From: Sclerotinia nivalis
Lineage: Eukaryota > Ascomycota > Leotiomycetes > Helotiales > Sclerotiniaceae
NCBI GenBank assembly: GCA_029531795.1
Contig: JAPEIS010000004.1
Location: forward strand, 434,001-498,000
Reading direction: 5' to 3'
DNA: 64,000 bases
Made by a program: the position numbers and the translations under genes. The notes beneath the pieces were generated by a model, which had not been told where the DNA came from, did no database searches, and saw only the letters and a program-made list of their open reading frames with translations. Positions 8,253 to 34,399 of this stretch are shown here, one piece after another (the stretch's first letter is position 1; each line of letters starts with the position of its first letter).

Positions 8253-8257
8253 ACTCG

Positions 8258-9044
8258 AATAATATCTCCGCTTATATATATTCTATCTATAAGATAATTG
8301 ATTCGAATAATTATTAATCATCAAATTCTCAATTAACTCTATTTAATTTAAAAATTTCTATCTATTGTTATTCTTTATTAATTATAATTTCTATTTTCGA
8401 ATAAATTTCGAATCCGTTGTATTCTTCAATCGCTTTGAAATCCTAAATGCTAAGGAATTCGTTAAGAAGATAAAATCAATTATCGATCATCTAAAAACCG
8501 AATTGATTATTAATCAAATCCGTTATTCGAAGAATATCGATTTCCGTTGTTTGCTTGTTCGCTATTATTAATCTAAAATCTAATCTAATTTAATATTAAG
8601 AATATCCGAGTTCTTTATTCCCAAAAGAAGTTAAACTGAAAGAACTTAAATTCTTTCCAAATCCTGAAAATTATAAACTTATATATTTATAAATTAAAGC
8701 TCCCGGCCTTTATAAAGAATCATTCAATCTTTTATATTAATCTATTACATTCCGTTAACAATGATTTTGTTTCTGATTAATATAACCCATTTTTTTCTTT
8801 TATCGAAATCGGAAATATAAAACAATTCGATATAAAGGAAATCCTGGATTCCCATTAGGAATATCGAGATTGTACAATCTTTACTTGAAATATACTATTC
8901 GCTAAATAGATTACAATATATCTATCAAAAAATCTATAAAGTATTTGAAGAATATTCAAGAATTGATCTATAATTATCATTGTTATTATCCTGATAAGTC
9001 TAGTCCCTTTAATCGTTTCAACAAAGTTCGATCCTAAAAAGAAG
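8258..9044. other. AT-rich spacer between elements A and C
   Basis: About 790 bases with no recognised element ends. A 68-codon frame at 8365-8571 and a 67-codon minus frame ending at 9058 have no recognisable motif, and the second runs into the LTR of element C. This stretch was originally continuous with 33861-34394; it may be a still older, unidentified repeat. Confidence 0.5.
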
Positions 9045-9049
9045 GGTAT

Positions 9050-9182
9050 AGTAAACACGACGGAAACGGATACAAAATGATAAATTGAAGTTGCGTATTT
9101 TTTATTAAACTAGGTTGAGTTGGAGTAGTTATATAGACCCTTTTGGAGTCATGTTATCTGTCTCCTTTTTGGTACAGTATTT
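9050..9182 (-). repeat. 3' LTR of gypsy element C
   Basis: 133 bp; the plus strand begins AGTAAACACGACGG and ends GGTACAGTATTT. Every difference I see from 33723-33855 is a transition. It contains TTATATAGACCC on the plus strand. Confidence 0.8.
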
Positions 9183-9799
9183 AGACCGGAATTGAAGCAA
9201 TATATGTCCCTGTATATCTTTCTTATTTATAGGTTTTTTGAAGCTATGTATATATTGTTTTCTTATTAAATGAATTAGAAGTCTTCTTGTGAAATGATAT
9301 TTCTCTAGCTTTTAGTTTAGTATACTATTTTTACTTTTTTAATTAATAAAAAAAAAAGAAATGGATTATATTAAAATAATATCGTTTTCGGTTTATATCT
9401 TTTTGCTATAAATATGGAAAGATTTTAAAACAATTTAATGTTTAAAACCTTTTATGAATTGAATTGAAAATAAAGCCTAGATTTGGTTGAAGAAAATGGT
9501 CGAAAGTTTGAAAGGAAAATCACAAGATTGTTTACTGAAAGTGGTCTAGTTAGGAATAAATTTATTGAAGTTTTCTAGATTCAAAAGAATCATTGTTTTG
9601 ATAATCCTTTTATTCTTTTTGGAAATCATAATAGTATTAATTCTTCAAAAACAGATTGTTGAGGTTCAAATATATTTTTGTCAATTAATCGGTTAGTTGA
9701 AGTTTTGATCTTGTGTAGATTCGATTAGATTCTTCTGATTTTGTATATAATTTAGGTTTTGTTAAAATCGAAAGTGTATTTCATATGATCTTTTCATAA

Positions 9800-12700
9800 T
9801 TTGTATTTTGATTTGAAAATGTTTTTGTTGTTATTATGGGTTATTTTCCTTTTCGGGTTGTCAAAAGCTTTTTCCATTTCGTAAAATTGGAGGAAGAATT
9901 GTTTTGAAAATATCAATTTGTAAATTCTAGTATTCAGGAATGCTTTTTTCGAATAAGGTTTGTAAATGGCCTGTTTTAGATTTAAAGGGTTTTAGATAAT
10001 CGATATAAAAGGATCGATGAATAGATTTACTATTGATTTATTATAGTTGATAGGATTTCTGATGATTTTCTACAGGACCAATTATTACAAATGAATTACA
10101 ATAAATTAAATGAAATTTCTTTTTAATAGATGCTTTATTATAAAGTATAATTATTTGATCAGGATCGAAAATTGTATAATTTCGAATATCTATATTGTGT
10201 TTTTCTTTGGTTAATATTTTTTTCTAATCAGATTATTATAAGATTTCTTGTTGAATTAGCTTTTTGTTATATATAAAATCGAAGATTTTTGATTGATAGA
10301 TTTCTTTTGGAAAGTCTTTATCAAAGTTTATAATATTGAATAAAAAGTTTTGGATTTCAAGATATTGATTTGAAAGGTATTTGATCTTCAGATATTCTAC
10401 AGATTGATATCTAAAAAGGATTTTATAAAAAGAATATCTTAAATGATCGATTTCTTATATATTGAATAAATTGATTGAAATTTGAACTTTTATAAACCAA
10501 TTTTCGATTTCTGAATTAATCTTTTTGAGGATTCTTTGAAAAAGATTGTTACCTTTTTCAATTATATTAAAGGATTTCTTAGCTTCTATAATTGTAGAGA
10601 TAAATAATATTTTGGTTTCTTTAACAAATTGTTTAACTATTTTATTTTCGAAATGAATATCTGGATTATAAAATCCTCCGATCAGAATTCCAAAGGTATT
10701 GAAAATCCAATTTAAGTATTTTATTGTTTCAACATTTGTTGTTTCAATTGTTGGAAAAACCTAAATATAATATAAAAAGTAATTGATTATAAAAAGGATA
10801 TAAGAAAAATAAATAAAACCTTTTTTATTGAATATATTATCATCGAAATCTATTGATTGAATAATAATATCGATTTTGATAAGTTTCTAAATTATTGGTT
10901 AGATTATTTTAAGGATTTCAGCTTTATTGATTGGGGTAGATAAAAAAGGTTCTATAAAATCGAAACTAATAAAAGTTAAAGGATAATCAATTTTATAAGA
11001 TTTGAGATGGGATATCCTTTGTTGTATATTATGCTTGGTATATTTTATACAATTTTAGATATATTGTTTGATATTAGTAATTAGTATTAATTATCAATAA
11101 TTCTTAAGTTTTTTGATTATAAATTTTGTTGTATAATGATCTTCTAAATTATAAACGAAAATTAATATTTTTAAAACTTCAGATTTGAGGATGTATCGTT
11201 TATCAATCCTATAGAAAGAAAAATATAGTTTCCTCTCGAGTATATGAAAGTTCTTGATATATCTAAGAAAGATTGCTTTCTTTAATTTGAAAAGGTTTTC
11301 AGAAAAAGTTTGAATTATTATATAAATATATATAAAAGAATATTATAGATCTTTATTATATTTATTTACAATTGGATTATATTGAATATTATTGGAAATA
11401 ATTATAAGATGATTAGTAATTATTGATTTTTTCAATAATAATGTAGAGAATATATTCTGACCTTTGAGATTTAGTTGTTTTTGTAGATATTAAGTTTTTT
11501 GAAGGCAAAAAAGTTCTTTGTAATTTTTAATATTGTTTTTCCAAATCCATTTGGGATTGTTTATATTATATTATAATTCTTCTAAAAAGTCTAAAAGGTT
11601 ATTTAACTTGTAATCAAGATTCGGGAAAATAGTACAAAAAAGAATATCCACGATTTTGTTACAAATTTCCAGGATATAAATAATAATGATATTGAAAATG
11701 AAAAACTTCATTGTTTAACGAATATATATATCTTTAATTTAAAAATTAAAAGAAAGGAAATTAATAAATAACAAATAATCAATAAAGATTATATAATCTT
11801 CAATAGATCTGAAATAATAATAATATTTTCTAACGAATTCAATAATAACAAGTAATTCGTATTTATAGGTATTATAATTTCTTTATATTTTGATTAACAA
11901 AAAGGAATTATATAATATAGAATATTCTATTAGATATCCAATATTCTATCTTAAAAGGTAATGTTTCTAAATAATAAAATATCCTGATACAAAAATACTT
12001 GAATCTGTATATATTTGAATTAAAAGAATATAATCGATATTATAGGAATCGATTATTTCTAAGCATTTCTTTTACAAAAATTCGAAAACTAATTGTTTAT
12101 AAGTTCCTCATTATTATTCCATTTTTTCTATAAAATAAGAAAAAGGATAAAAGATCTCAGCGAAATTCTTAATACTTTTACAAATCATTTGTATTATAAT
12201 TAGAAAACTTCGAATTTTAGTTTGATTAATAGAAACTAGAAAATTCTTGATTTTGATTGCTTTAATAGGTTTGGTAATTATAATATTATCAGTTTTATAA
12301 AGAATTCCTAAAGTTTCTATTTGATCGATAAAGATATATAATTTTTTGAAAGATAAATATAGTTAAGCGAAATCAAAACAAGGAAGAATGTGATTAACTA
12401 GATTAAAATAAACTTCTTTTAGAATTACAAAACCTGAAAAGATATCATCAATATAAAATTTGATCAATACTAGATTGTTTTCAATATTAGATTCAAATAT
12501 AAAAGGATATTCTCTATCTATTGAATTATTTTAAAAAAAAAGGAATATAACTGAAAACTATATAGAGAAATTCAAATATAGAAAAACAAACAATTTAAAT
12601 ACCTTATAGAATTTTGATAGATTATATCTAAATTGAATCTTCTATAGAAAAAACAAAATAATAACGATCTTTTGAATAAAAAAATATACTCTAATAAATA

Positions 12701-15700
12701 TATTTCAAATCGAATTGTAAATATACTTTATAATTAGAATAAAAAAGAAATTTATAAATATCTTAAAATAAAATATAATAATTGTCTAGCATCTGTTCTA
12801 TAATTTTCGAATAATCGAAAACTATATATTTTTCAAAACCAGATTTATAAAAAGAAAGATTTTTGAGATATTCAATATCTAGTTTATCAACCACTAATAA
12901 TATTATTGATCAATCAGAAAGTTTATCATTAGCTACTATAATATATTTATATATATAGTATTTATACCCTTTAGATATAATCTTATTAAACCAAAACATC
13001 TATTGAGAATTGTATTTAGATCTTTTTCTATTTTTATAAAGAAGAATATTTGGTTTGAATTATACTCAATAAATATAAAAAGAAGTAGAAGGAATATAAA
13101 CTAGTTCTGTAGCGTTTAAATCTCTATAAATATAAAGAAATCGAATAACTCTTAATCGAAATTTATTTATTGTTAAAAGATCTATATCGATTTCATTCTT
13201 CTAAAACTATTTATTTATAATATCTATTAAATTTATAGATATTTCTCAAAGAATCGATCTTTTATCTGTAAAATATATATATGTTTTTGAAAGATTCGAT
13301 TGAAAAATAAAAACTTGATTGATCGAAATATATTGATCTTTTTCTTAAGGAAATAATTTGAAGTGTTTGAAATCCATTTTGAAAGAAAAATCGAATTGAT
13401 ATAGAATTTCGATTAATATATATAAATTATCTATTTGAAAAATTGTATTAAAAGTATACAATAATTGAACTTTCGAAAAGGAAGATATAATATAATAACG
13501 ATATTTCCGATAATCGAAGCTATAATCTTGATTTTCAGTAAAAATCTCTGAAAAGGCATTTTCTTCGAAACTATCTAATAATTGAAGGAGTATATCTTCT
13601 ACTGAATAAGACAATTTGGATTATATAAACCTTTAAAAAGATCGAATATATAAAAAGTTTTTATTTTGAATTCCTTTAAATCATTTTATACTAATTTTCG
13701 AAAAAAAAGAAAATAGTTTTGAATTATACTGAAGACTCAAAAGTTTAAAAAGTTTTGTAAATTGTTCGAATCTGAATAATCACCTTGAGATTCTGAAATA
13801 AATTCAGAAAGGGAATCAGATACTTCTTCGAATACTTTTTCGGAATCTATTGAATTGGAAGAGTCTTCTGATGAATTAGATTTTTGTTGATCTTCAAATC
13901 GTATTGTTTTTGGAATTGATTTGGTATTAAATGCAAAATTATCAATATTTCTACCAGCAATTTCGAATTCTATTGAAATCTCAATATTGAGGATAGCTAT
14001 TTGATACTTTGGATCAACTGGATATAGAATGAATTAATAAGAAAAAAATTATTTAAATTTTGAAATCTGAATAAGTATTCTTTTTTTATCCAAATCTTCG
14101 TCTTCAATAGAAAGAATAGAATTAAAGATATCAATATAATTTTTGTTTGTATAAAACTATAATAGACTTAACAAAAGAATCTTCTAATTCTTATTAGGAT
14201 TACTTTCCTTATTAGAACAAATGAAAGTATAAATAATTCATCAAACCCTTTCGATTACAAAATCAATAATAATACATTCTTTTAAACCTATATCTATTCT
14301 ATTAATAATTCCTATAGAAATATTACTATTAGATTGAATTCTATATCGATATAAATTTAAATGATCAACGAAGATAGAAAAAACAATATTGCCATCAAAA
14401 TCTTAATCAACTATACAATTGGATTTACCTATAATAATCTCTATTGAAAATGATCCTGATAAAATATATATTCCCTTAATTCAGAAAGAACAATCTTTAT
14501 CTACAATACAAATAATGATTAGAATAATTGAATAATCTATAATATTAATCCTATCTAGATCAATCATTTGTTGATCGTTTTTGAAGAAAACATTAAAACT
14601 TGATAGATTGTATTTAGGATCCTTCTATTTATAAGAGAAATATTATCAAATTTGATTAAAAGAAAAATGAATCAGATAATTCTGAATAAATCCATATCGA
14701 ATTGAATATACTAGTTCAAGATCTGAGTTCATAATTGAATTCTGATTTAATTGATCAAATTGATCAAATTGACCATTTTGATCTGGGTTACCCTAATCTT
14801 TATTCTGAATTGAAACTAAAAAAGTTGAAGAAACTTCTGATTTATAAATAATTATTAGTTTCTTTTTTCTAATTAAGTTTTCTCGAATAATAAAGTGTTT
14901 GAAATACTTAACAGTATTTGAAGAGATCTAACAAAAATCTAAAAGATTAATTCTTTTAGAATCTAATATAAAATATTGTATAAATATTTTATAATCTATT
15001 GGTCTTTATTTTTATCTACCAATAATATTAGAAAATGGTTTAGAATTTCTAAAGTATCTTTTATAATTGTTAACAAAAGTTGTATACTTAAAAAAAGGGA
15101 TAAATAATCGAACTTCCGATGATAATAGTTCAGCTTGATAAACTTCTAGAGAAGAAATAGAAACTTATAATTATGAAAATATTATTGATATTTAAGAGAT
15201 AGTATTTTTGTTTCGATTATAAATATGAAATACAAAAAGGTTCTTGTTCTGTTTACGAATTTCTTTCTATAATTAAAAAAAAAGACAGATATCTTTAAAT
15301 TCTAATGAAATAATAAAACGGAATCTCTTTCATTATAAAACTATTATATAAAAAATAATTTTGTTTTCAAGATTTTCTTTATTGTTGATATCATCTGAAT
15401 TAATTTCTTTAACAAAACTTTGTTCAAATATTTGTATAAATTTAGTCGAATTATTGAAAGATCTTTGATCTGAATAATCTAAAGAATTATCGAATTCGTT
15501 ATCTGGAATAATACTATAAAAGATAGTATCTGAATTATAGATATTATTTAACTGAAAAAGAATATCTTTATTAATTTTTGGTTTTTTATAGTAATTGATA
15601 CAAACTCGATCTAATTTTCTCGAACTAATTGTATCAATTTGATTGATACCAGATTTTTTTATAAATTAATCCTTTATAACGATATAAGAAAGATTACTAA

Positions 15701-15845
15701 TAATAATACTCTTAGATAAAATTATAATACAAAGAATTATTTATTACTATATTGATAAAAGATTTCCAATACATTTAGATTTAAAATATTTATATTTTTT
15801 ACAATCAAAACAGAAAGGTTTTTTACTTGGATTATATTCTTCTAT
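9800..15845 (-). pseudogene. Degraded gag-pol of gypsy element C
   Basis: Minus-strand remnants of a gypsy polyprotein. The knuckle at 15771-15812 reads C-x2-C-x4-Y-x4-C, where functional gag knuckles have C-x2-C-x4-H-x4-C; the His-to-Tyr change is what a C-to-T mutation in a CAC/CAT codon gives. The reverse transcriptase keeps YIDDI at 12441-12455, followed by recognisable thumb and connection sequence (for example FLVSINQTKIRSFL, then KNFAEIFYPFS) to about 12110. Stops interrupt all frames. The 5' part of gag continues beyond the Fot1 and D insertions (18032-18361, then 32385-33700). Confidence 0.7.
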
Positions 15846-15846
15846 A

Positions 15847-15888
15847 ACCGATATCCCTATATCGTGCACAACCCCACATCTTGCACGC
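15847..15888 (+). repeat. Left inverted repeat of the Fot1-type element
   Basis: 42 bp; contains ATCGTGCACAACCCCACATC then TTGCACGC. Matches 40 of 42 positions of the complement of the right end. Confidence 0.93.
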
Positions 15889-15917
15889 ACTTTTAATTTT
15901 ATAAAATATCAACCACT

Positions 15918-17863
15918 ATGGATGGATACAGCGATGATATGCTTTTAGAGGTCTGTATGGAGTTCGCATTAGTTCAAATTAAAGGTGTAGAGCATTCTAA
16001 ATATACTCAAATAGCTAATTTCTTCAAAATCAATTGTTCGACGCTTTTTCGGCGCTATAGAGGCAAAACCATCTCTTGCAGTATTGTATATGCTGAAACT
16101 CATCAATCTCTTTCAAAAGAGCAAGAAGAGGTTTTAATTGATTAGATCAATAAGTTAATACAAAGATCTATGCTTTCTATAAGCTGTATAGTCAAAACTT
16201 TGCAGAAGAGATTATAGGTTGCTTTCTAGAGAAGAATTGGACAGCAAATTTTGTAAAAAGGTATAAAATATGTTTTCAAAGTCGGTATCTCTGATGTATT
16301 GATAATTTGTATATGAAAGCTGATAATGTTGTTATATTTGAGTATTTTTATAATCTGGTTTGAGTTATTTTATATTGTTGTTGAATTTTATTATTTAAAA
16401 GAGTTATGCTAATATTTTTATTTTTTTTATTTAATTAACAAAAGTAACTATAAAATACGATATATCATCGAAGAATATATACAATTGGAACGAAAAAGGC
16501 TTTCTTATTGGTTTGGAAAGAACTATAAAGAGGATAATGAGTATTAGTATATATAATCGTAGTAAAGCTACGAAAGCTAGGTAGGATGGATCAAAAGAGT
16601 TTATTATTCTTTTAGTATATATATGTATCGATGAAACAGTTATTCTTTTTATTTTAATTTATAAAAGGGAATCTGGGGATCTATAGGATATATAGATTGA
16701 TGAGATAGGAGTGAAGGATTAGATTTATTTTGAAGCTTCAAATAATGGATGATCATCGAATATATTCGGTTTTATTTGGTTTACCAAGATCTTTCAATAT
16801 TATATTTGTTCAAAAGCAGGGAAAGGATATTATCTATTGATTGTAGATGATTATTTTAGTTATATGAATATAGAATTTATATCGAAATATAATGAATTGA
16901 AGATCATTTTATTGATTCTTCCTTTCTATTCTATATATCGATTACAATTTCTTGATATAAATTACTTCCTTTTTCTTTCGACGAATTATAGTATAGAACT
17001 CAATAATCTGATATACAAAAGCAAGGGTATCGTTGAAATATCGAAATGTAATTTTTGGATGATATTTAAGATAGTTTGAGTTCAATCTGTTATTATTTAT
17101 AATATTCTGAAATCTTTTGAAAAAGTAAGTATTTATCCTATAAATAAAAATATTATTATTTGTAGTATCGAATCTAAAAAAGCCTTTATGTTATTTATAT
17201 CGATACAATTTGTAGGGAATAAAATAAAGATATTATATATGATTAAAACTTTTTGTTATTTCAAATTAGAGTTTCATTTCAAATAAGATCCCGATATCAT
17301 TCAGAAGCTTTTTAAGGCTACATTTACAAATACAACTAATATTAATATCCAATTGTATAAAGCAAAGGATTTAAAAGAAATTTTAAAGATCGAAAAAAAG
17401 AAAAGGATCTGTTCCAAATGTTTAAATTTTGTAGGGAAAGAAGGCGGGAATGCTTTTTTATACTTCCTTTTGCAAATTGAAAAAGCTAAAGTTTACCAAT
17501 CGATTAAAGCATTAATTGTTGAATAGAAAAAGAAAGCTAAGAAGCAAAAAAAAGCTGAAAAGAAAGTTGAAAAGGAATAAAGGGATAAAGCGATTAAAGA
17601 AAAGATAATACAAAGGGAGATTGATCGTCAAATTGTATGTAATACTAAGGAAGAGGTAAAAAGAGCTCGGAAATCATTAATACCTTTTATTAAAAGAATT
17701 CAAATGATTTTAAAACGTTCTTATACTATAAACTTAGTATCTAAAAAAGCTATAAAGGATTACGATATTATAGAGGTTGATAAATTAATAATAGAAGGAG
17801 AAAGGGGGGTATTGCATTCAAGGGTTGGACGATACATCAAGATTTCGTCGAAATTGATAAAGT
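15918..17863 (+). pseudogene. Fot1/pogo-family transposase, broken
   Basis: The first 75 codons are open: MDGYSDDMLLEVCMEFALVQ, then a pipsqueak-type helix-turn-helix (SKYTQIANFFKINCSTLFRR) as in Fot1 transposases. Stops follow. A DDE-domain piece is open at 16837-17079: LIVDDYFSY stands where the family has LIVDGHGSH, so the Gly and His after the second catalytic Asp are changed to Asp and Tyr, and it continues to ELNNLIYKSKGIVEISK. The lysine-rich C-terminal region reads through about 17330-17863. A full-length member has about 500-600 residues. The protein cannot be made from this copy. Confidence 0.85.
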
Positions 17864-17988
17864 AAAGATTTTTTGATTCTATTGGATAATATTATATCTT
17901 TTCATATATCAAAAAAAATCGTAGTTTTATATTTTATAAATTATAATTAATATCGAATTTTGAAGTGATCATAGTTATGATATGGGGG

Positions 17989-18030
17989 GCGTGCAAGATG
18001 TGGGGTCGTGCACGATGTAGGGATATCGGT
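17989..18030 (-). repeat. Right inverted repeat of the Fot1-type element
   Basis: 42 bp, ending GTAGGGATATCGGT. The two mismatches with the left end are C/T and G/A. Confidence 0.93.
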
Positions 18031-18361
18031 TACTATTTACAATAAAATGTTTTGAAATCTTTAGATTCAGTAAATTGATTTGTTAAATTTGATTGAAGAT
18101 CTACTGAAGGTTATTGTTCTATTCTTATCAATTATTATTATTGCAATTGTTATTTCCATCTTTATTTTGATTTCATGAATTATTAGAATTGTAATTTCCT
18201 TCCGAACTATTCTTTTTAAAAGTAGGTTTTGATTTTAATTGTTGGAAAAGAATTTCGAACTTCTATTCTTTAATAAAACCTTTAAATTTGATATTGGATA
18301 TACTATCTATAAGTTTTTTAACAATCTCATTGTTTATAAATGAATCTTGAAACTCTATATT

Positions 18362-18507
18362 TGTCACGGGTTCGTAACCCGTTTCTAGCTAGTCTGTATG
18401 GCTGTCTAAAGCATTTATCCCTTATATAGTCGGTGCTTTTTCTAGTATCTTTTTCTTTCTTTGTAGAATATTATTATATTTTAAAGTATTCTATTATTAT
18501 TGTGATA
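18362..18507 (+). repeat. 5' LTR of gypsy element D
   Basis: Starts TGTCACGGGTTCGTAACCCG, ends TTGTGATA, with TATATAG at 18423-18429. About 30 of 146 positions differ from the 3' LTR; all are transitions. Confidence 0.92.
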
Positions 18508-18510
18508 GTA

Positions 18511-19871
18511 CAGTAACCGAAAACACGTAAATATAAATTTTTACGCGTTTCATTCTTACAATCTATATTCTATTTATTAATTATACCATTACAACGCACT
18601 CCATTAAAATCAATTGATAATAATAATGTTCCTCAAAAGTATCTTAGCCTATATGATCGTGATAGAATTATTGGAAAAGCCTCAGAAAGTGCAGGATCCA
18701 TTAAAATTGCGAATAATCTTGGAATAATCTGTATTATTATATATAACACTATTAAGATGAATCAATTACACAATAAAGATAAATCCTTATTCAAAAAACT
18801 CTAATAAAAGTGTTATTCAGAAAGAAACAAATATATAGTAATATAGTATATATGTTTATAGCCCAAATTGATCTATTAGGAAACTATTACAGCTTATAAA
18901 CTTGATTTCAAAAAGGATATTATCAAAAGGATCTTTTATATATATAAAATAGATAATTGAAGAACTAGAAAGAGGCCTAAATTTACATTAAAATATACAC
19001 TTAAACGATTTGTATAATATCTAATGTGGAGGGGCCTTATAATGAAGGAATAAAGCTTAATCTTCTAATCGGATGAATGCTTTATAGAGTAGAGGCGGGG
19101 TAAAAAACAGGAATGGGTTTTCCGCTCTTCTTCTCAAAAATAGAATCGGAATATAATTTAAATATATTCTTCAAAAAAGAATATAAAGGTTATAATCTAA
19201 GGAGGCTTTTGTGATACCGGAAGAAACAATCTCTATATTATGAATAGAAATTTTGAATCCAAAAAGTTTGGGTATAGTACCAATTCATATTTGGAGGTGT
19301 TTGATACAGAAATCGAATCTATTTTCGAAGGATTGGATTCAGGGTATCAATTTATACAAGATAATGCTTTTATATATATTGTTCGCAAAATAAAAGTATA
19401 ATTTCGAAAGAGGGATATCTTATTAGTTCAAGATTGGCTTCCTTATAATCCTGATCTAAATTCTATAAAGTATATTTGATAGCATCTAAAAGTATATATT
19501 TTTGAGATGTTTCTTGATCTTGTTATAGATAAAAGCACTTTAGAATATACTAGATAAAGATTGAAGAGTGTTTTACAAGCAGTTTGGAATACATTGGATA
19601 ATAGGTTATTCGAAAAATTGGGGGCTAGTATATCGAATAGAATAAAGGTCTGTATCACAATTGATAACTGATATACTAAATATTGAAGGTTTAAAGTAGG
19701 GTAACAATATAATTTTTTTATATTATTAAAATATATATATAGATCTCAAATATATCAAAATTTTATATTAAAATAATGAAACGTTAATTTAATAAATAAG
19801 ATTGAATAGAATAATATTGATAAATAATTCCGGGTGAAATCCGGCCGGCCATTATCTGTGCGTAAGTACTG
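18511..19871 (+). mobile_element. Tc1/mariner-like transposon, RIP-degraded
   Basis: Starts CAGTAACCGAAAACACG and ends GCGTAAGTACTG, flanked by TA at 18509-18510 and 19872-19873. The inverted ends share only CAGTA clearly. The insertion point is confirmed by element A, whose leader reads straight through the site (complement of 8091-8110) with one TA. It lies two bases beyond the 5' LTR of D, where the primer-binding site would be, so it would block replication of D. Confidence 0.85.
18600..19690 (+). pseudogene. Tc1/mariner-family transposase, broken
   Basis: Plus-strand fragments in order: N-terminal DNA-binding piece (DRDRIIGKASESAGSIKIAN), then SDECFIE near 19065 (first catalytic Asp), QDNAFIYIVRKIK near 19355-19395 (second Asp) and DWLPYNPDLNSIKYI near 19430-19480, where the final catalytic Glu is replaced by Lys. 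Spacing fits the DD-x34-E layout of fungal Tc1-like transposases. Several stops interrupt it, so it is inactive. Confidence 0.85.
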
Positions 19872-20016
19872 TATATTCTAATCTTTATAAAGATTCTGTT
19901 GTTGAATGGGAAAGATAGTCTAGTTTTATCAAATAATTAATTTCACGAAATATTCGGAAACTTCGATTATTAATATATTGATAAACAATAAACAATACTT
20001 TAATTCGATTCTAATC

Positions 20017-20077
20017 TAGATCTAAATCTAGATCTAGATTCAGATCTAGATTCAGATTCAGATCCAGACCTCGATTT
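20017..20077. repeat. Hexanucleotide repeat in the leader of element D
   Basis: Runs of AGATCT/AGATTC units (TCTAGATCTAGATTCAGATC and similar) between the mariner element and the coding part of D. The counterpart in A is 7918-7968. Confidence 0.75.
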
Positions 20078-23000
20078 AATCAATATTATATTGTTATATA
20101 CTCGAAATCAAAGATTCTATAATTATACTTTAGTTTTTAAGATTGTCTTAAATAATCTATTATTATATCGGATATCATTCAATCAATTTTATTAAAATTA
20201 TTGATATTTTTAATTTGATTAAAGATAATACTTGAATTCCGAAAGTATATTAAATTTGTTTTTTTTAATTATCAATGATTTATATATAAGCTTTTTAATA
20301 TTGAAGATAAAGATCTTAAAGATTCAATCTTTGTTTTCGATATATTTATTAATATATAGAATTTTGAAATTGTTGTATATATATAATATTTGTTTAGTTT
20401 TATAAAACGGATATTAGCTTAAATAAAGCAATATTGATAAGAAATATATGTATTATAAGGAGATTTGTAATTAAATAATATAGCTAATACGAGATTAATG
20501 ATTCAGAACTTTGTTTTTCGGGAATAATTTGATTAATTATTTATTAATACAAACTCTATTGTATCAATCTATCGATTATGATAAATTACAAAGAATTTTA
20601 AATTGTTCAAAAATGAAAAAACAGGTTTTTTGATTCGATAAAGTGAATATAAAGATTGGAAAATAGGTTTATATATTTATTGGAAAAACGATTCTATAGT
20701 TTTCGATATAGAATAAAAGAAATTGTTATATATAATTTCGTTTTTGGAAGGAATAATTTGATAAGAAAGATGAAAAGATATTGAAGGAATTATAGATAAT
20801 ATATCGGAATTTATTATTGTAGATGTATTTCTAAAGAAATTTGATGGTCTTTATATTTCAATTGATATTGAATATAAGATAACAATCAAATTCGATAAAT
20901 TCAAAATGGACAAAAAAATCCTATTTTTTATTTTTTTTTAATAATTGGAATATTTAAATATATTTAATAGAAAGATTTCTTAAGAAATAGTTTTTGTAAT
21001 GAAATAAAAAGTTATTGATGAATTGAAGATATTAATAAAAGACGATTCAAATCTTTGCGAATTTATTAATATTAAAAAATAAAAAAAGAAGTTTTAAATA
21101 TAGAATCAAAATTGTTAGGATAACGAATATTATAATATAAACTTTTCGAGATCTAGTTTAATTTATATTCAATAATAAATATTATCAGTATTTTATATTC
21201 AAAACGATCTTATAGATCTCGATGTAATTAGAATTTCAAAACAAATATAAAAAGAGTATGAATATCTTTATAATTTATATTATTTTTATAAACAATCTAG
21301 GTATCGAATTGTAGATTGTAAAGCAAAGAAATAAATCGATATTATAAGAAATGTAAGTAGATATAAAGGTATTTTTTGTAGAAGTAGTTATTTGAAAGGT
21401 AATCAATAATACTATTCGAGTAATTCAATTAATTGAGATAACTATTAATGAGAAGGATATTAAATATAACTTCAAATTTAATAATATTATTCCTTTAATT
21501 CAATTAATTATAGAAGTTTTTAATAAGGTAATTATTAAGATTATAATAATCATCAATAATAATACTTTAATATATTTATTAGGTTCGTTGAAAAAAAAAT
21601 ATTAATATTATCAAAAAGTATATCAAATATATCTTCCCGCAATATAATATCATCGTTACCTATATTTATTCAAGAGTATTTAGGAAAAGTTTAACTTTTG
21701 TAATAAATCATTTGTAAAGGTTATCAAAAGATATAAAATGAATATAATAAGTAATAACTAATAAAGAACCTTTATAGTTCAATTCTATAAATAACAAATC
21801 TCTATTTGTTCAAATTATTATATTTTCAATATACTTTTCTTCTTTCAATATAATCAATTTGATTGATAATAGATATTCAAGAAAAGTATTCATTGATCGT
21901 TCTTTCGTTGATCGAAACAATATCTCAATTCAATCTTTATTATATCATTGCGAATTTTGTTTAACAGATAGAAATATTATAAATATCATTATTGATTATT
22001 TCATAATGAATATAGTAATAAAACAATATAAAGAAATATAATTATTTTTTATTACAAAATTTTTCAAAGAAACTTTAGTTATTTTCGGGTTATTATAATT
22101 ATAATACTATAATTTATATATAAATTGATAGAATATAATTCTTTTTTTCAATTTTCAATATTATATGATATATTATTGCTTTTATAGTATATTCGATTCA
22201 ATATAAGTATCAATAATCCCTTTACTAATATATATAGATCAAATATATAAAAGTAGTATATCTATAAAATCATTTATCGATAAAATCCTTGATGTATTAT
22301 TTTCAATTAAAATTTTCCTTTTTAATATAAAAAAGAATCCTTTTCAATATTTATTATCATTTATTGAAGATGAAAATGAAGATAACAAAATATACATTCA
22401 AAATTTTAAAATGGTTTTAAAAAAGCTATCGAAACAAGATTATAATGAATCAATTTCTATAGACGAAGATTATAAATCAATAAAAGATTCTGGAATCGAT
22501 TTACAAATCGATAAGATCTTGATATTTGGTGTAAATCATTATTATATAAGAATTTATAATAAAAAAACATGATTTCAAATACAAATAATATTGAATTGAT
22601 ATTCTATTCAATATAAGTTTATACAAAAGATTGTTGAACAATATCGGCTGAAATTAATACTAAAGAATAAACCTTTATTATTGTTATCAGTTCCAATTCC
22701 AAAAGAGCAAATCGAGATTACTTCCAATATAAGATCAGATTTAAATAATATTTATTAATTACAAGCTATTAGTTTTATATCTTTTTGTTAATAAAATAAA
22801 ATGAAAATTATATATCTTATATAGAAGGAATTAGATTAAACAAAAAAAACTATTTAATAAAAACGTTTATATAAAACAATAATGATTTTAGTTTTTCAAA
22901 AACAAGATTTCAAGGATATATTATATAGAAAAAGCAATATCGCCGATATATTAGCTAAAATATCTCTGAAGCTTTAGGATTTTGTTTATTATTGTTATCA

Positions 23001-25174
23001 ATTAAAACATTTTCAGAAAATAACAGAAATAAATATTGAGAAATTCCTCAATAGCAAATCACTACTCAACGATAATAAGATCAAGGAAAAGTTTTTTTCG
23101 TAGCTTCAAAACAAACTATTTGTTTTCTTATTTCGTTATATAGATACATTTTCTTTATATCGAATATAGAATTACAAAATAAAATTAATATTTAGAAAAG
23201 AATCTCTATATTTCAAAAATCGTCCTTTATCCCCTTTCGAATTAAAAATAGTTCGAAAATGAATCGATAACAATCTTGTCAAAAATTTCATTCGAGAATC
23301 AAAATTACAAAATACAATCTTATTACTTCTAACAACCAAATCTGATAAAAGGGTTTATATCTATCAGGATTATCATAATTTAAATAATATTATTATTAAG
23401 AACCGATACTCTTTACTAATTGTTCGAAAAACTCTGAATATTCTTTGTAATACAAAAATCTATATCAAATTAGATATTATTACTATTTTCAATAAATTTT
23501 GTATTGTAGAGAATAACGAATGGAAAATCGTTTTCATTATTCGATTTGGATTATTTGAATCATTAATTATATTTTTTGGTTTTTGCAATATATTAGTATC
23601 ATTTCAATACTATATTAATTATATTTTGTTTAACAAACTGAATAAATACTATATTATATATTTCGATAACGTTTTTATATATTTTGAAGATAAGAATCAA
23701 TATTGAGAATATATTCGTAATATAGTTTAAAAATTGTAAGATGCTGATTTATAAATCAATATTAATAAATACAAATTCGAAACAATTTCTATAAAATATT
23801 TAAGCTTTATAATCACAACCGAAGGTATAAAAATGAATCAAGATAAAATATCAACTATTATTTTTTGAGTACAATTAGTATCTGTTAAAAATTTACAACG
23901 ATTTTTTGATTTCGCGAATTTTTATTGTTGATTTATAAAAGACTTTTCAAAGATCTATTATCCTTTAAATGATCTTTTGTAGAAAGGAATAAATTGACAA
24001 TAGAAGAACAATCATATAATAATATTCAAGAATCCAAAGAAAGCATTTATAACAATTCCAATACTTGTTTATTTTAATTACAATAGAAAAACTATATTGG
24101 AAATAGATATTTCGGATTGAATTTCGAAAAAGGTATTTTTTCAATACAATGATAACAATGTTTTACAACTAATAATATACTTTTCTTCGAAATATTCGAT
24201 TATTAAATCAATAAAAAAATGATAATCGGAATTACAAAGATCTCAATAGAAATTCGAAATCCTGATTGATTATAAGAATCTGGAATACTTTACAATAATA
24301 AAAGCATTAAATCAATATCAAATATAATGATCAGAGTTCTTATTTTAATATAATTTCCGAATTGTTTATCAACCAGGAATCAAAACAATTCGGCTAGATA
24401 TTTTGAACCATTGACAAGAGAATCGATCTGATAATTTTAATCCCAATAATAAACATTTAAAAAACCAAAAACACATTATTTTATCTACTGATAGATTCGA
24501 TATAAATTTATACAAAGAACTTATAAATAATTTTTCATTAATTATAATAAATTAAACAATACTATTTGAAAATAAATCTATCGATGAATTTATTGATATA
24601 ATATATAATAGATCAGATATAACCAAACAATTAATATCAATAATCAAAGATCTCTTTACAATCAAATAACTAAAAGAATTCAGGAAAATCTTACGAATAG
24701 TTATACAGAATTGCTATATTTACAATAATAAGATTTACTATTATAAAAAATTATAGATTCTGTCTAATGATGAATTAAAGATACAAATTTTATACAGAAC
24801 ATATTCATCGGACTCTGTTGGCCATTCTGATTATACAAAGATTATTGATTTGATCTTCAGAAACTACTGATAACTATAGATGTATCAAAAAATAGATGCT
24901 TATATTCAAGCTTGTGAACTTTCTATTCGAATAAAATCCCCAAAATCATCCCCTTCAGGATTCCTGAAACCATTGTCTATTCCTTTCCAATTATAATCAG
25001 ATATTTCAATCAATTATATTACACCTTTGCTAGATTATAAACACTACAATTCAATATACAAATACATATTAATAATTGTTTGTAAATTAACAAAAATGAA
25101 ACATTTTATAAATACAAGATCTCTAACAATAAAAGAATTAGTTAATATTTTCATCAATTGCATTTATATATTAC

Positions 25175-25382
25175 TGTCGGGATTACAGTCATATGATCAT
25201 GAACCGTAGTTAAATCATATGATCGTATTAGATCATGTGATCATAAGGGATTGTACGAGTTTCTTCAAATATATATTTGAAGAGTTCGTTTTTTCAATAT
25301 AGATAGTAACAATTAAGAATCAAGTTTTATTAAATAGACTAAAGTACTTTACACTTTGATCCTTATTATTTCGATACTAATA
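25175..25382 (+). repeat. 5' LTR of the copia element
   Basis: 208 bp, starts TGTCGGGATTACAGTC. Less mutated at its left end than its partner, which starts TATCGGAATTATAATT. Confidence 0.92.
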
Positions 25383-25849
25383 TTAATTAGTGATATTACA
25401 AATTAGGGGATTTGAATATCTTTAAGGAATATTGTTTTCCTGAAGGATCTTTTGAGAATTAGTTGAATCAATTTGAAGAGATATCAATTTCCAAATAAAT
25501 GGATATTGTTTCTATTTGGGTATCAAGAATACTGTTTTCTTGTTTTGCTAGGATATTGGTATACTAATGAGTTAATTCTGAATATCGTTTTCAGAAGGAA
25601 ACTCAAGGGAGTTCGATTGTTATTGTAGTAGTTAGATTTCTGTGTTTATTATGTATTTTGTATACGAATTACAATACAAATATATTCTTTTTCTTTTTTT
25701 TGAAATATATTCTTTTAAGAATCTACAATTTAATAAACAATTTAAACAATATACTTTTCTATTTCATTTTCCTATTCCTTCCAAAAATATATTATTTACG
25801 AATCCGAAAACAACAACAATATATCTAGAAAGATCTTTATTATAGATAT

Positions 25850-28800
25850 GCTAAATCCATTATCTGATGGTTATGATTATTCTGTTGCAAAGAAGAAATT
25901 CAGAAATTGGATTGTTGTAAGAAAGGATGAATACAGAAATGTTGAAGTTATCAACGATTATATTATATTTAAATATTTTTAATATGATAAAGAACAAATT
26001 ATCGATTACGATCTTATAGAAATCCTATAGAATGATTTCGGAGGTTTCAAATTAAAACATTTCAATGTTGTTGATAAAATAGAACTTCAAAAATTTAGAA
26101 AAGTTCTATATATTAATAAAGTATTTGTATTGAAATATAATATAGAATTTGATTAAGTATTCTATATTATTATAAGGATAAAAGATTATATTTTATAAAT
26201 AGAATAATAGATCAAAGAATATCTAAAAGATAATAGTATTTTATTATCTAAGTTTCGATCAGAAAAGGGTTTATATTAGATCGTTATAGATTACGATCGA
26301 AATATTAAAGAAGATTTATTTTTAAAAATATCTTAATAAAAAGAAGAAAAAGAAAAAAAAAGAAATAATTTAAACGAATAATCCGATATTGATAATAGCG
26401 AAAAGAAAAAGAAAGAAGGAAGAATAGAAAATAATTATCAATTATTTATCAATCTTTTAAGGATCTATAATGATAATGAAAAATATAAAGAGGATAATGA
26501 TAATTTTGATTACAAATTTTCAATCTTTTGGGAAATGATATGATAAATAGAAGTTCTAAGAGAATTATTTTTTAAAGTATTCTTTATTATACTTAAAAGA
26601 AATGTATTCGAATTCTTCTATATCAATTATACAAAACTATCAATTACCTTCAAAGAAATATATACTTTTGTCAAACAAAATTTCGAAAGAGATCAATATC
26701 ATTGTTATATATTATACAAATAAAACAATACAATTCTAAAAAAGATTCAAAAGAAAAATAAAAACAAATCCTTAAATGATTGTTTAATATTAATGATTAA
26801 AGATTTACATCAATTACAATTAAAATTTGAATCAAAGATACATTCAACAAAACATCTTTATATACGATTAATACAAATATATAAAAATATTCTGGTATAT
26901 AGTATAGTATATATAAATGCAAAAAAGGGTATATCAAGGTTTATCAATCAATTGAAACAATTCATTAATATTTGGGAAAAGATTAATAAAAAAGATAAAG
27001 ATTCAATATTCTTTATTGATCGAAAATATCATTATAATTATTGATACGATTCCTACTTTCGAAACAACTTTCGAAATTGTAATCTAAAATATTGGATTTG
27101 CAAAAAGAAAGAATATTGTTTTATCAAATATTCAAAAGAAGAATAAAAAGAATCCAAATAGCAATATAGAGCGAAGTTTAGAAAAGGTAACAATTATACT
27201 TTTAAATAATATTTCAATCAATAATTAATAAATTATGAAAAAAAATCAATCGATAATGAAAACGAATTCGATAAGGAAATGGGAGCCTTTTTCGCAAATC
27301 TAGAATTCAATAATAATGAGAAGATCGATGATAGTTTCTTCATTAGTTCAGGATTTATCAATAAAAGGGAAGTATTCAATCAATTAGTTAATCAATCCTT
27401 TTGTTATATAATAATCAAAGAAATTAAAATTGAATTATTTTATAAAGAACAAATCTATATTAGTAAAGAGTTTTATAATATATATATCAATACAAAAACT
27501 ACAAAACTTTCAATAATAGGATTCGATCAATATTAAGTATAACAAAAGATATCCCATATCGAATACAATCCAAAAACAATCGGAATAGCGAATATCAAAT
27601 TTGAAAAAGGAATTGCAATTTCAATAGAATCATTTTTTATTATACTATTATTCGGAATAATAGAATTTCATATTCTTAAAGTAGATATTCCATTCCTATT
27701 AAGTTTAGCAAATATAAATTGATTCAAGATTTTCTACAATAATATTATTAATAAATTAATTATATTAATACAAAACTATCCAATTATTCGATGATTTAAT
27801 TATGTTTTCTTAATCTGGAAGATCAATATTAATACATTTATTCAGGAATTAATCTGATATAATGAATACTATATGATTAACATCGAACTTCGTCAATTGT
27901 ATCGACAATTCGATCATCCTTCTGCAAAGAGATTCCATCGAATTCTACAATGAACAGATTATAAAGAAGATCACAACGTTATCAAGTATCTTATCAAATA
28001 TTATGAACACTATCAAAAATATAGAAAATCGCCTAGAAGATTCAAATTTATACTACCTGAGAATACTGAATTCAATTATTCTATTATAATTGATATTATA
28101 TATATCAATAGGAAACTCGTTTTTCATATAATAAACGAAGCAATTTGTTATCAAACAGCTCGATAGCTAGAAAATATCTCTGCGAAATATATATAGAATA
28201 AAATTAAAGAATGCTGAATTGATATTTATATTGGATCGTCTAAATATATTGTTTACAACACAGGAAAGAACTTTATAGTAAAAGAATTCATACAATAATT
28301 ATTATTACAAAGGGTATATCTATAAAAGCATACAATTTTATCAATATAATAGAATGTTATTATCATCTACTCCAAAAAGTTTATATTATATTAAATCAAG
28401 AACTCAAAAATACAGAACTTATAAATACGATATTACTCCAAATAACTATCAAAACTGTAAATGATATAATAGGATTTGATGGAATCATACCTACTTTATT
28501 AATATTCAATATCTACCCTCGAATAAATAAAATCAATCTACCAATCGAAACTATTATTCAATATACTAATACTATTCGGAAAGCTATAAAAGAAATACAA
28601 AAAATCCAAATAGAATATCAAATACAGAAAGTATTAAAACAACAAAACGAACCTTTTATTTCAAAAGTTTATACATTATCTATCAATTCTGATGTTTTAG
28701 TATAAAAAGAAGATAAAGAAAACAATCGATCTAAAGAATGAATTGAACCTTATAAACTATTAACTATAAAAAGAAAAACATATTCAATTCAATTTCCAAA

Positions 28801-30740
28801 TAGATCAACAAGATTCAGATCTACTATTGTACAACCATTTTATACTGAACCAGAACCAAAAAAATCAGAAGAAATCAATAATAAAGAAATCGACAATAAT
28901 AATAATAAGGAAATTGATAACAACAACAACAACAATACCATTATAATAGAAACTCCCCTGCAATTTACATCTCCAACAATATCAATACTACAATCTAAAA
29001 CACCACCATCAAAAGAACAATTAAGAACCCGACTTCGAAAGAAGGTAAAAAGCAATTTGATTAATATAATCAATATAATCAATTCCAATAATAAAACCAA
29101 AACAAACAAAAAACCATTACCCCAAATTATAGCATTCCTTTAAGAAATAAAAAAAGAAGAGTTTCTAGATCTACTTGATGAAATATTCATCGAAAATGGA
29201 GATCCATTTTTTTGATATATCGAATCACATCAAAAAAAAGCTTAATGGACTTATGGAAAATAAAGTTTTCGAAGAAATTAAAGAAAATGATATCCTTAAA
29301 GGAACAAGAATCTTCAGATTACAATTTGTTGATGAAATAAAATACGAAAATATAAAAAAAGCATTCTCAAAATCAAGATTAATGATCCAAGTATATCATA
29401 ATAAAGAAAAAACCAATGTTTTAATATAATCATTTACACTCCAAAAAGTTGAGCAATATATTATCATAATATTTACAACAATATTGAAAAAGAGTATAAA
29501 AACTGATATTCTTTTATAAGATATTATATAAGTATATATATAATCAGTTACAAATCTGAATAGGATATTCTATATTCGACCCCCAATAGAATTCAAGCTA
29601 TCAAAAGAAGTACTATAGCGTATTGTCAAATCATTATACGACATCCCTGAAACCGGAAACCATTGGTTTGGAATATATCATAGCCATTATTAAGAAAAGT
29701 TAGGAATGATACAATCAACCTTTGATCTTTGTTTATTATATACAAATAAAAAGGGCTTTGGTATTGTAGGATTACAAATTAACGATATATTTATTATAGC
29801 CGATAAAGAATTTGCAAAACTAAAACAAAAACAATTAAAAAAAACGAATTTTATAATAAAGAAATAAGAATATCTATCAAAAGATATATCTTTCAAATTC
29901 AATAAAAATATGATTTCTTTGAAAGACGACAAATTCTACCTTAATCAAAAGAAACAATATGATAATCTGAAATTAATTATATCAGAAAACTCAGATTTGA
30001 AAAAAACGAAAGGCAAAATCTGTACGAATATTATCTTTAAGGATTAATATATTGTTTAATATATTTGAGGAATATATATAATTATTATTTGTCAATCAAA
30101 AGCTTCTTATTATCTTTCAATCGCTATCTAAATGATTAATCCGAAATAAAACGATATCAAAAAACTCAACAAAACTATTAAATAACAAATGGAAAATTCA
30201 TCAAAAAGACTTACTTTTGTATTATTTGATTTAAATAATATAAGAATAATTACTTTTACAAATATATCCTTTACTAATAATACAAATATATCATCTCAGA
30301 TTGGATATATGATTTGTCTAATAAATAAAAATAACAATATCAATATTATTTATTAGTCCTTTGTTAAATACAAAAGAATAACAAAAAGTATTCTAGTATT
30401 TAAACTATACAGATTAGTTTTAGACTTTGATATAAAGATTACAATCAAAAACATTATTAATGTTATTATTCAATTAGAAAAATAAATCCCTTTTTTTGTA
30501 TACATCGATTCTAATTTACTATTTGAACTACTCACCAAACTAGGCTTTATTATAAAAAAGAAATTTATAATCGATATTCTTTCGTTATGACAATCCTACA
30601 AACAAAGAGAAATTACTAAAATCAAATAGATCGACAAAGGATCGAACCCTATTGATACTATAACTAAAGATAAATCCTATCAAACATTAAAAGAATTAAT
30701 CGATACAAACAAGATTATTATCAAAAAAACGAAATAAATA
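25850..30740 (+). pseudogene. Degraded copia gag-pol
   Basis: Fragments in order: gag with a knuckle region at about 27078-27119 (CNLKYWICKKKEYC, where a first knuckle Cys appears changed to Tyr); protease piece ending TKTTKLSIIGFDQY at 27492-27533, in place of a DTGAS-type active site; integrase at about 27880-28300 (ELRQLYRQFDHPSAKRFHRI, then FNYSIIIDIIYI and SAKYI); reverse transcriptase at 29590-29900 (LYDIPETGNHWFGIYHSHY, FGIVGLQINDIFII, where the catalytic TDD is IND); RNase H at about 30200-30720 (ENSSKRLTFVLFDLNN, IGYMI, LRQSYKQREITKIK). Open pieces of 80-90 codons survive, but no complete frame does. Confidence 0.9.
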
Positions 30741-30802
30741 AAAAAAGAGAATTAAAGAATTAAAGAAATTCGGATCACATAACTTTTTAAAGAAATTGCC
30801 AG

Positions 30803-31010
30803 TATCGGAATTATAATTATATAATTATGAACCGTAATTAAATCATATAATCATATTAGATTATATAATTATAAGGGATTATACAAACTCCTTCAAATAT
30901 ATATTTAAGGAATTCGTTCTTTCAATATAAATAGTAACAATTAAGAATCAAGTTTTATCAAATAGACTAAAATACTTTACACTTTGAACCTTACCATTTC
31001 GATACCAACA
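30803..31010 (+). repeat. 3' LTR of the copia element
   Basis: 208 bp, ends CGATACCAACA. Compared with the 5' LTR I find transitions and a single A/T difference (TTGAACC versus TTGATCC). Confidence 0.92.
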
Positions 31011-32233
31011 ATTATATAATCTCCCGGAAAATATCATTTCAAATCGAGGAATGCAATTTGTATCAGGATTCTGGATACAGCTTTCTGAACAATTAGAAGT
31101 AGCCCTTAAACACAGCTCAGCGTTTCATCCATAGATAAACAATCAAACAAAACGAATCAATTTAATTCTAGAATAATATTTATATATATTCATAAACTTT
31201 TATCAGAATAATTGGATGGAATAATTACTATTGATAGAATTTGCTTCAAACAATTTAGTTTCTGAAATAACAAATTATTTGCTATTCTTTACGAATTATA
31301 GTTTTAATCTACAATTGGATATAAAACCTAATAAACCTTGCCTTTTAGATATAATAATAATTTAAAAATACAAATTCTTCAAAGAAAACAAAATAGCCAA
31401 TAGAATAGAATATATTCTGGATCAATTCAAAGTATTTACAAAATAATTTATTGTAATCTATAAGGAATATACAAATCGGAATAGATCAGATTCGCTATAA
31501 TATATAAAAGAACAAAAAATATATATAAATATGAAAAACATAAAAATATCTTATAAAACAAAAAAGTTCGATGATAAATGAATCGGACTATACGAAATAA
31601 TAAAGATCTATCCGTATATTTGCTTGATCGAATTATCAGAAAATATACGAATTTTCCCAATATTTCATTATTCATTATTAAAATCAGTATATCCAAAATC
31701 TCATTTTTCAAAACAAACTTTAATTAACGAATCGAAATCGAAAACTATAAAAAACAGAATTCTCGAAAGAAAAAACAAAAAGAAAGAATCAATTCAAAAA
31801 TAAATATTTGAAGATATATTTAATAATTACAATAAAGATAATTATCATTATCAAATCAAATAGAAATACTACATACCAATCTAACAATCAATATTAAATC
31901 TAAAAGGCAATAAAAAGATCCTAATCGATTACCATCGTTTACACCCTGAGAAATCTAAACCACTATCATAAATCTTAGATCATCTAAATATTGCAATACT
32001 ATTATTAGCTCTAGCTTCTATAAAGATTTTACAATGATCAACAAAAAAGAAAATACAATTTACTTGAATAAAAAAAATAGTATTTCAAATTTTAAAACAA
32101 TCTTAAAATTTGAAAGGTGATCTCACAATTCAAGAATTTGGGGCGTCTGAACAAGATTTTGCTTAAATAATTGTTTTTCAAAAAAGTTTTATCAATAATT
32201 TAAAAACAAACTAGACTTTAAGAAAGGAAATAC

Positions 32234-32379
32234 TATTACAGATTCGTAACCCGTTTTTAACTAGTTTGCATAGCTGCCTAAAGCACCCATCCCCTATATA
32301 GTCGGCGTTCTTCTTAGTATCTTCTTCCTTTTTTATAGAATATCATTATATCTTAAAGCACTCTACCACCACTGTGATA
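32234..32379 (+). repeat. 3' LTR of gypsy element D
   Basis: 146 bp, starts TATTACAGATTCGTAACCCG and ends CACTGTGATA. The preceding 12 bases are purine-rich, as expected for the plus-strand primer. Confidence 0.92.
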
Positions 32380-33722
32380 ATATTTCTTTTAATACTTTGA
32401 ATTGTATAATAACTTTCAACAAAAGATCGATAAATAATATTATTGAAAATAAAATAATTGTGAAAAGTTGAATTGATTAATTCTTTAACAAAGTTAAAAA
32501 TTAGTTTTTCTTGAATAATTGTATTAATGATATCAAGGTTTTTCTCAGAAACAGGAATATCTTTGAATTCTATATTGTATTAGATATCCTTTATTCGTGA
32601 ATAATATTTCTCAAAAGTTTCGTTTTTAGCTTGAACAAATAAATTCATTGAATCCATTACATTCTGAATTATATTTTCATTATTATAAAAAAGATAACAA
32701 TTTAGAAAAATCTTAATAAAAACAAATTCGTTTTCCTGAATAGCTATTTCGATATCTTCAAAGATAGTTTTGAAATCAATATAATTATTTATTTAGATTT
32801 GAACTTTCCTCTTAAATTTCAATTGAATTATAATGAAAAAAACAAATAATTTATAAATTGGATCTCTAATGATTCATTTAATAATAATTTTGATTATATT
32901 TAGTTATATAGAATTTAATATATTACAATAATCGAATTCAGATATTGAATCGATATTGATTTTGTTTCAAAACTTTTCAGTTTTAGTATTATCAAATATC
33001 GATATACTTGTAGTTTGAAAATTCGAATTGAAAAAATTAAAGGAAAAAGATAAAAGTATAATAAAAAACGAATTGAACTTTTTCAAATAATTCAATAAAA
33101 GATATATTTCAAATCCTAAAAGTTTTATTTATAAAGATTCTGAAAAATTGTAAATCGAAAAGAAAAGTTCTTCAATAAAAGATATATAATATATTTATTC
33201 TTGTAAATCAAAATTAAAAAGATATTAATAAAAACGAGTAACAATTTATCAATATTTAGAATAAATTTCGGAATCAATCTTTAAATTGAATCTTTTATTT
33301 CTCAACTATAAAAAATATGAATATTTCGAAGATTCGAAATTAAAAGAAAGTTCGATATCAAAAGATTAAAGGTTTTGATAAAAAAGCGATACTGAATTTA
33401 TTCCTAAAAATGCAATTATTATATTAGATTAAAATCTTTGAAAAGGGATATTTTGATACAATAAAAAATTGATACTTTAAACAAATCAAAAATCGGGGAT
33501 TCTATATACAAATGAATAGTTCTGTAGATAACGAATCTATATTATAATAACTTTATTTTGCTTCCTTGAAATGATCGAATTGTTGAAGCTTATAATATCA
33601 ATTAATAATTCTAAAAAGAAAATTCAAAAAATAATTTTTCGAAAAGAAAATAAAGTATGAATCTGTAAACAGAAAGATATTAACAATATATTAAATATCT
33701 ATAAATCCTTATATAGATTACC

Positions 33723-33855
33723 AATAAACATAACAGAAACGGATACAAAATGATAAATTGAAGTTACACATTTTTTATTAAATTAGATTGAATTAGAGTG
33801 ATTATATAGACCCTTTTGAAGTCACGTTACCTGCCTCCTTTTTGATACGGTATCT
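33723..33855 (-). repeat. 5' LTR of gypsy element C
   Basis: 133 bp, plus strand begins AATAAACATAACAG and ends GATACGGTATCT. The duplication GGTAT follows. The base after the LTR in element orientation begins GGTAATC, a possible but weak primer-binding site. Confidence 0.8.
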
Positions 33856-33860
33856 GGTAT

Positions 33861-34394
33861 TATTATAGAATCTCTATATAAAATATACAGAAACTATTCA
33901 GTTTCCGATTTATAAGGATCGGCCCTTGATTAAATATAGATTAGCTTTTATCAAAGCTAATACTATATATAAATATATTTAAGAAACTGTTCCTTTTATA
34001 GAATTATAACTCTTTGAGTTATATCTTATTAATAAAAGTTATATCTGTTATCCTGTCTGTCGCCTCTGTAATATAAAGATGATGTTTCGATTTATTGAAA
34101 AACGATGATTTATAATACAATCCAATTGATCATCCTTATTTATATATTCTATCTAAAAATCTTTTTAATAACAAAATATCAAAAGTTCTTTATATATTTA
34201 TAATAATTATAATAATCTTCATCTTCTTTTCAAAAGCTATTTCTATATTGTAAATAAAGATTATAGTTAAATTCATAACGAATCTTTTTAAAAAAACTCT
34301 ATTATATTGAGAGCTGATTATCCCAAACAAAACTGCTATTCAAATTAAATATCTTGCTATTATTCTTTCCAAGCCCTTCGCAATACATAAGATG
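33861..34394. other. AT-rich flank at the edge of the transposon block
   Basis: Continuation of the DNA into which element C inserted. No element ends, open frame or RNA gene seen. The base composition changes sharply to its right. Confidence 0.55.
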
Positions 34395-34399
34395 AAAGC

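Follow-up and report, generated by a model that had tools for sequence, protein, structure and literature searches.

The window analysed here is a 64,000-nucleotide stretch from the fungus Sclerotinia nivalis (C4:434001-498000 of a 50.3-Mb, 31-contig assembly), and its first 34 kb form an AT-rich block occupied by transposable elements inserted one within another. Guanine–cytosine (GC) content is 17-30% in 1-kb bins across window positions 1-34000 and 33-52% beyond, where long open frames appear; between 8000 and 35000 there is no start-to-stop frame of 150 amino acids or more. The block contains long terminal repeat (LTR) retrotransposons and DNA transposons, here called C, Fot1-like, D, mariner-like and copia-type, together with two further elements, E and D2. 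The cluster is an ordinary, well-resolved nest of elements, and its host is a member of the Sclerotiniaceae.

An earlier note on this DNA, made from the letters alone, had placed five insertions here: C, containing the Fot1-like element and D, with the mariner-like and copia-type elements inside D. Read base by base, all five lie where they had been put, with the same target-site duplications and LTR lengths (Table 1), and every insert in the stack carries its own flanking duplication. The members of each LTR pair are equally long, as had been claimed, but they are not identical in sequence, agreeing at 113/133 positions in C, 114/146 in D and 177/208 in the copia-type element. Two random 5-mers of the block agree with a probability of 0.0042, so the three matching end 5-mers, one of them with a single transition, are not due to chance. 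TA pairs alone are weak evidence (2-mers agree with a probability of 0.11); the case for the TA duplications comes from the ends of other family copies and from the empty sites described below.

Table 1. Elements of the nested stack and their target-site duplications, in window positions.
Feature	Position	Strand	Target-site duplication	Remarks
E, left of the D2 insertion	1-107	+		Contiguous with 8253-9049 in 7/7 spanning alignments, gapless; continues left of the window
D2, second gypsy-D copy in E	108-8252	minus	ACTCG, perfect, 103-107 / 8253-8257	Similarity to D copies; empty site
E, 3' internal part	8253-9049	+		Ends in an apparent polypurine tract (AAAAAGAAGG)
Element C, LTR retrotransposon, probably gypsy type	9050-33855	minus (coding)	GGTAT, 9045-9049 / 33856-33860	LTRs 9050-9182 / 33723-33855, 133 bp each; interrupted by the Fot1-like element and D
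Fot1-like DNA transposon in C	15847-18030	+	TA, 15845-15846 / 18031-18032	Inverted repeats of ~44 bp counting TA; DDE_1; empty site; TA beside other copies
Element D, Ty3/gypsy type, in C	18362-32379	+	ATATT, 18357-18361 / 32380-32384	LTRs 18362-18507 / 32234-32379, 146 bp each; empty site; RVT_1
Mariner-like element in D	18511-19871	+	TA, 18509-18510 / 19872-19873	Directly behind the D 5' LTR; empty site
Putative copia-type retrotransposon in D	25175-31010	+	ATTAC, 25170-25174 / ATTAT, 31011-31015; one transition apart	LTRs 25175-25382 / 30803-31010, 208 bp each; empty site
E, right terminal part	33856-34073	+		Apparent 3' LTR of ~213 bp

To look for empty sites, the 150-bp flanks of each insertion were joined with one copy of the target duplication and searched in the same genome. 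For every one of the inner insertions the join was spanned without the insert in 40/40 listed rows, namely Fot1 in C and D in C (each the best 40 of 53 candidates), mariner in D (best 40 of 258) and copia in D (best 40 of 266). The earlier note had asked whether other copies of C or D contain the inserts as family sequence; since the listed copies cross the joins without them, the inserts do not belong to the family sequence in those copies. The same approach shows that the stack is larger than first noted. The flanks of C rejoin in 38 of 41 rows (of the other three, two are the window itself in halves and one is partial), so C is nested within a further repeat, E. In the fetched loci, every spanning alignment was gapless within 10 bp of the join: 8/8 for Fot1 in C, 7/7 for D in C, 7/7 for mariner in D, 4/4 for copia in D, 5/5 for C in E and 7/7 for D2 in E.

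Since the block is built of high-copy repeats, where assemblers err, the stack could in principle be an artefact in which repeats from different places were misjoined. A false join would not, however, create matching target duplications at element ends, nor, at six sites, leave flanks that come together without a gap as family sequence, and the contig is 2.97 Mb long; we regard an artefact as very improbable. It is more improbable still that the inserts are normal parts of larger composites that move as one unit. All of the parts do belong to multi-copy families, but the other copies listed are without the inserts, and among the matches listed (40, 40 and 41 rows) the filled C–D, D–copia and E–C junctions have a single full-length match, the window itself. 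Five rows overrun a junction partially, by ~18-38 bases (C7:685448, C3:1789933 and C3:1565651 for C–D, C4:382236 for D–copia and C1:6944056 for E–C), and others do so by fewer. Judged from these three junctions and the matches listed, the composite does not look as if it has been copied as a unit.

Nested insertion of separate elements thus gives a relative order. That C preceded D, D preceded the mariner-like and copia-type elements, and the Fot1-like element followed C, as proposed earlier, holds from the nesting and the empty sites; the placing of C at the base of the stack does not, since C lies in E. Counting E, C, D and mariner/copia, the nesting reaches at least four levels, and together with everything inserted in it E spans at least 36 kb (C4:431926-468073). 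Nesting alone fixes neither the order of Fot1 and D nor that of mariner and copia, and any order given to these sister insertions is conditional.

Element E is probably itself an LTR element, because it has a purine run followed by a terminal unit of ~213 bp, relatives of which recur alone elsewhere. The border between run and unit is straddled by C's duplication, and the insertion point of C (9036-9049 / 33856) coincides with this apparent polypurine-tract/3' LTR border. Just beyond the left edge of the window, E is interrupted by another mariner copy (C4:432583-433937). Units resembling E's right end are found further left, one in the same orientation at L068:4133-4243 (80% over 111 bp) and one in reverse at 2470-2661; these were not counted as parts of the same E, membership being shown for neither.

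The D copy inside E, D2, contains two additional segments. One of ~290 bp at 1683-1976 is absent from D copies L010-L012, with similar sequence at L008:326-614. The other, of ~1 kb at 6022-7052, is absent from D copies L007-L009, has a GC content above its surroundings (30% in 6001-7000) and includes a run of short AACTCTCTAATTAAA-like repeats. In a gap-free comparison the LTRs of D2 agree at 66/146 positions; this figure was not used, as the left LTR is apparently shortened.

Family identities were sought by searching ten stop-free pieces of the degraded frames against Pfam, with relevant matches for two, DDE_1 and RVT_1. Fot1/pogo-type and Tc1/mariner elements of filamentous fungi have a TA target duplication and inverted repeats. 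The Fot1-like copy combines inverted repeats and a TA duplication with a DDE_1 transposase match (22.7 bits against a cut-off of 22, E=7.9e-5), which together point to a Fot1/pogo element. It has seven further near-full copies and many partial ones, with TA next to each end shown; two copies align from base 3 onwards, the first bases differing. The mariner-like element, whose transposase was read by eye, ends in CAGTA...TACTG with TA on both sides. Another 17 copies begin to align at base 7 or 8 and extend at least to base 1321; 16 of these 17 begin with TACAGTAAC, and TA directly follows the aligned right end in 13/17. The window copy (18511-18540) keeps the outermost CAGTAA and is without ~17 bases of the left terminal repeat that other near-full copies possess. 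Both DNA transposons share the TA duplication and inverted repeats of their fungal relatives, with DDE_1 in the Fot1-like copy, and differ in being degraded and, for mariner, in the shortened left terminal repeat.

Among the retrotransposons, D has the LTR pair and 5-bp duplication that Ty3/gypsy elements require and an RVT_1 match at 23263-23703 (E=0.001, but 19.3 bits, below the cut-off of 29.6). Its integrase was read by eye, the integrase-like piece giving no relevant Pfam match, and the copia-type element is inserted in this putative integrase region. For the copia-type element itself, an integrase-before-RVT_2 order was read by eye, and on the minus strand of C we read pieces of reverse transcriptase (12366-12530) and then integrase (10458-10760) in the same way. 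The degraded frames, gene order and termini of C, the copia-type and the mariner-like element, read by eye, would be consistent with the classes used here.

The termini of C are unusual. In coding orientation its LTR reads AGATAC...TTTACT and so ends in AG...CT and not TG...CA; some copies have AA or TT, and the canonical TG...CA is absent from the window and from the fetched copies with ends, including L004/L005. In the window the outer ends are fixed by GGTAT. A probable second copy at C6:2010877-2019148 (L004/L005) has ATTAT at both ends, with moderate support, as its ends but not its middle were fetched and ATTAT occurs often here (frequency 0.010). Transitions cannot convert TG...CA to AG...CT at the first base. 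Read by eye, the sequence after the 5' LTR of C has no usual primer-binding site (the complement of a transfer RNA (tRNA) 3' end), and the closest conserved purine run lies ~35 bp ahead of the 3' LTR and not adjacent to it. From this handful of copies we raise, as a tentative and rather doubtful suggestion, that C belongs to a retrotransposon lineage with true AG...CT LTR ends and non-standard priming of DNA synthesis; if so, its integrase would act on ends without the usual CA. Other LTR families that depart from TG...CA are in print, among them, in the part of the source used here, the TGTT and AACA subfamilies of Rosaceae (PMC5659011). C resembles these in that departure and differs in having AG...CT, in a fungus, and in being, by eye, without the usual primer-binding site or an adjacent polypurine tract.

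Differences within the LTR pairs are nearly all transitions, 20/20 in C, 32/32 in D and 30/31 in the copia-type element, a total of 82 transitions and one transversion. This is the pattern that repeat-induced point mutation (RIP) would leave, and LTR identity consequently cannot date these insertions; dating by LTR divergence was rejected on the grounds that 82/83 differences are transitions. C-to-T change is found on both strands of the repeats and with a dinucleotide context, as is characteristic of RIP: in the aligned fetched copies the frequency of C/T differences is 0.495 at CpA, 0.494 at CpT, 0.419 at CpC and 0.324 at CpG. We infer that a RIP-like process caused the transition bias. The alternative, that ordinary deamination of methylated cytosine over time produced the transition-only differences, draws on the fact that CpG sites differ too and that the context is broader than the strict CpA of classical RIP. 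It is nonetheless unlikely, for CpA and CpT both exceed CpG, and transitions outnumber transversions 88-fold in Fot1, 64-fold in mariner, 34-fold in copia, 14-fold in both C and D and 12-fold in E (D2, 7-fold). Furthermore, a joint CpA and CpT signature of C-to-T change is the one described for transposable elements of the close relatives Botrytis and Sclerotinia, in the part of the source used (PMC4352252).

The two D LTRs (18362-18507 and 32234-32379) show opposite strand biases in C-to-T change: the left has T where the right has C at 20 positions and G where the right has A at 6, the reverse C/T case occurring 6 times. In 300-bp bins, some stretches favour one strand: the left D LTR scores 0.83 on the plus and 0.20 on the minus strand, and copia 30875-31010 scores 0.49 and 0.91. 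Such strand tracts were not used as a second chronology, as polarity changes without a clear match to element borders and some bins hold few copies.

Because RIP yields transitions only, transversions were taken as a slower clock. Transversions per site were counted between the window copy and family copies, in loci with at least 400 aligned bases, and compared by a one-sided rank test. The medians are 0.0149 for E (n=5), 0.0089 for C (n=10), 0.0039 for D (n=16), 0.0024 for copia (n=13), 0.0015 for mariner (n=19) and 0.0013 for Fot1 (n=19). This descending sequence agrees with the nesting, as supporting evidence only, given that family divergence is not insertion time. The steps C>D (p=0.027), D>mariner (p=0.0014), copia>mariner (p=0.0015), C>Fot1 (p=4e-5) and D>Fot1 (p=0.0006) are significant. 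D2 is more diverged from D copies than D is (0.0155 vs 0.0039, p=0.0004), and may come from an older subfamily.

We consider it very nearly certain that the block arose by successive nested insertions with target duplications, followed by repeat-induced C-to-T change. On this account the base repeat E, probably an LTR element, was struck by C, D2 and another mariner copy; C received the Fot1-like transposon and gypsy D, and D the mariner-like and copia-type elements. Each insertion made the usual duplication, of 5 bp for LTR elements and TA for DNA transposons, and repeat-induced C-to-T changes would afterwards have wrecked the reading frames and driven the paired LTRs apart. The junctions, duplications, empty sites and transition bias are seen directly, whereas RIP as the cause, the classes given to C, copia, mariner and E, and any order among sister insertions are inferred.

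Besides the breadth of the C-to-T context, several points weigh against this account or parts of it. The transversion medians do not separate E from C (p=0.13) or D from copia (p=0.09) significantly, and D2 lies inside E yet has a median (0.0155, n=16) no lower than E's; the loci compared were fetched by rank, and every comparison shares the window copy. The genome searches scored the best 40 candidates each, and the uniqueness queries covered the C–D, D–copia and E–C junctions. The pieces of C, copia (two) and mariner (one) that were tried gave no relevant Pfam match. A low-stringency search of 3.5 kb did not locate E's left end; the matches there resembled AT-rich noise. Lastly, the junctions were read from the assembled sequence, in which high-copy repeats may be misjoined.

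Beyond the stack, a 104-bp element lies at 34400-34503 (site 34395-34508), just past the AT-rich block. Its ends are TGTCACGGG...CCCCGTGACA and it is flanked by a perfect duplication, AAAGC; it looks like a solo LTR or a small non-autonomous element. It includes words which we take to be tRNA A-box-like and B-box-like, in reversed order; a tRNA gene was rejected, as ARAGORN (bacterial settings) detects no tRNA in the window. Further right, a Rad1/XPF-like protein is encoded at 58083-60899 that shares 96% identity with Bcrad1 of Botrytis cinerea and 94% with a protein of Sclerotinia borealis.

Nested clusters of this kind are well documented in fungi, and the present stack is a new, clean instance. 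In Mycosphaerella graminicola (Zymoseptoria tritici), 78 putative nested clusters of 7.5-63 kb have been reported, with a table of LTR base elements with verified duplications, in a paper that mentions further nests in L. maculans, Epichloe, F. oxysporum, N. crassa and M. grisea (PMC4522978, from the part of the source used). Those clusters resemble the present one in being nested, in their lowered GC and in lying in a genome with a RIP-like process, and differ in fungus and families. The C-to-T signature in CpA and CpT is likewise that of Sclerotiniaceae repeats, although that work is genome-wide, whereas here a single stack is worked out to the base; assemblies of Botrytis and Sclerotinia given in that part of the paper measure 38.2-39.5 Mb, against 50.3 Mb here (PMC4352252). 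We did not find the stack described in open-licence papers, in a search not specific to the locus. Its value is that the transposon families of a fungus with RIP-like mutation can be placed in a resolved relative order, backed by empty sites in the same genome; it also shows that LTR identity is no clock here, and transversions between copies broadly track the order of nesting.

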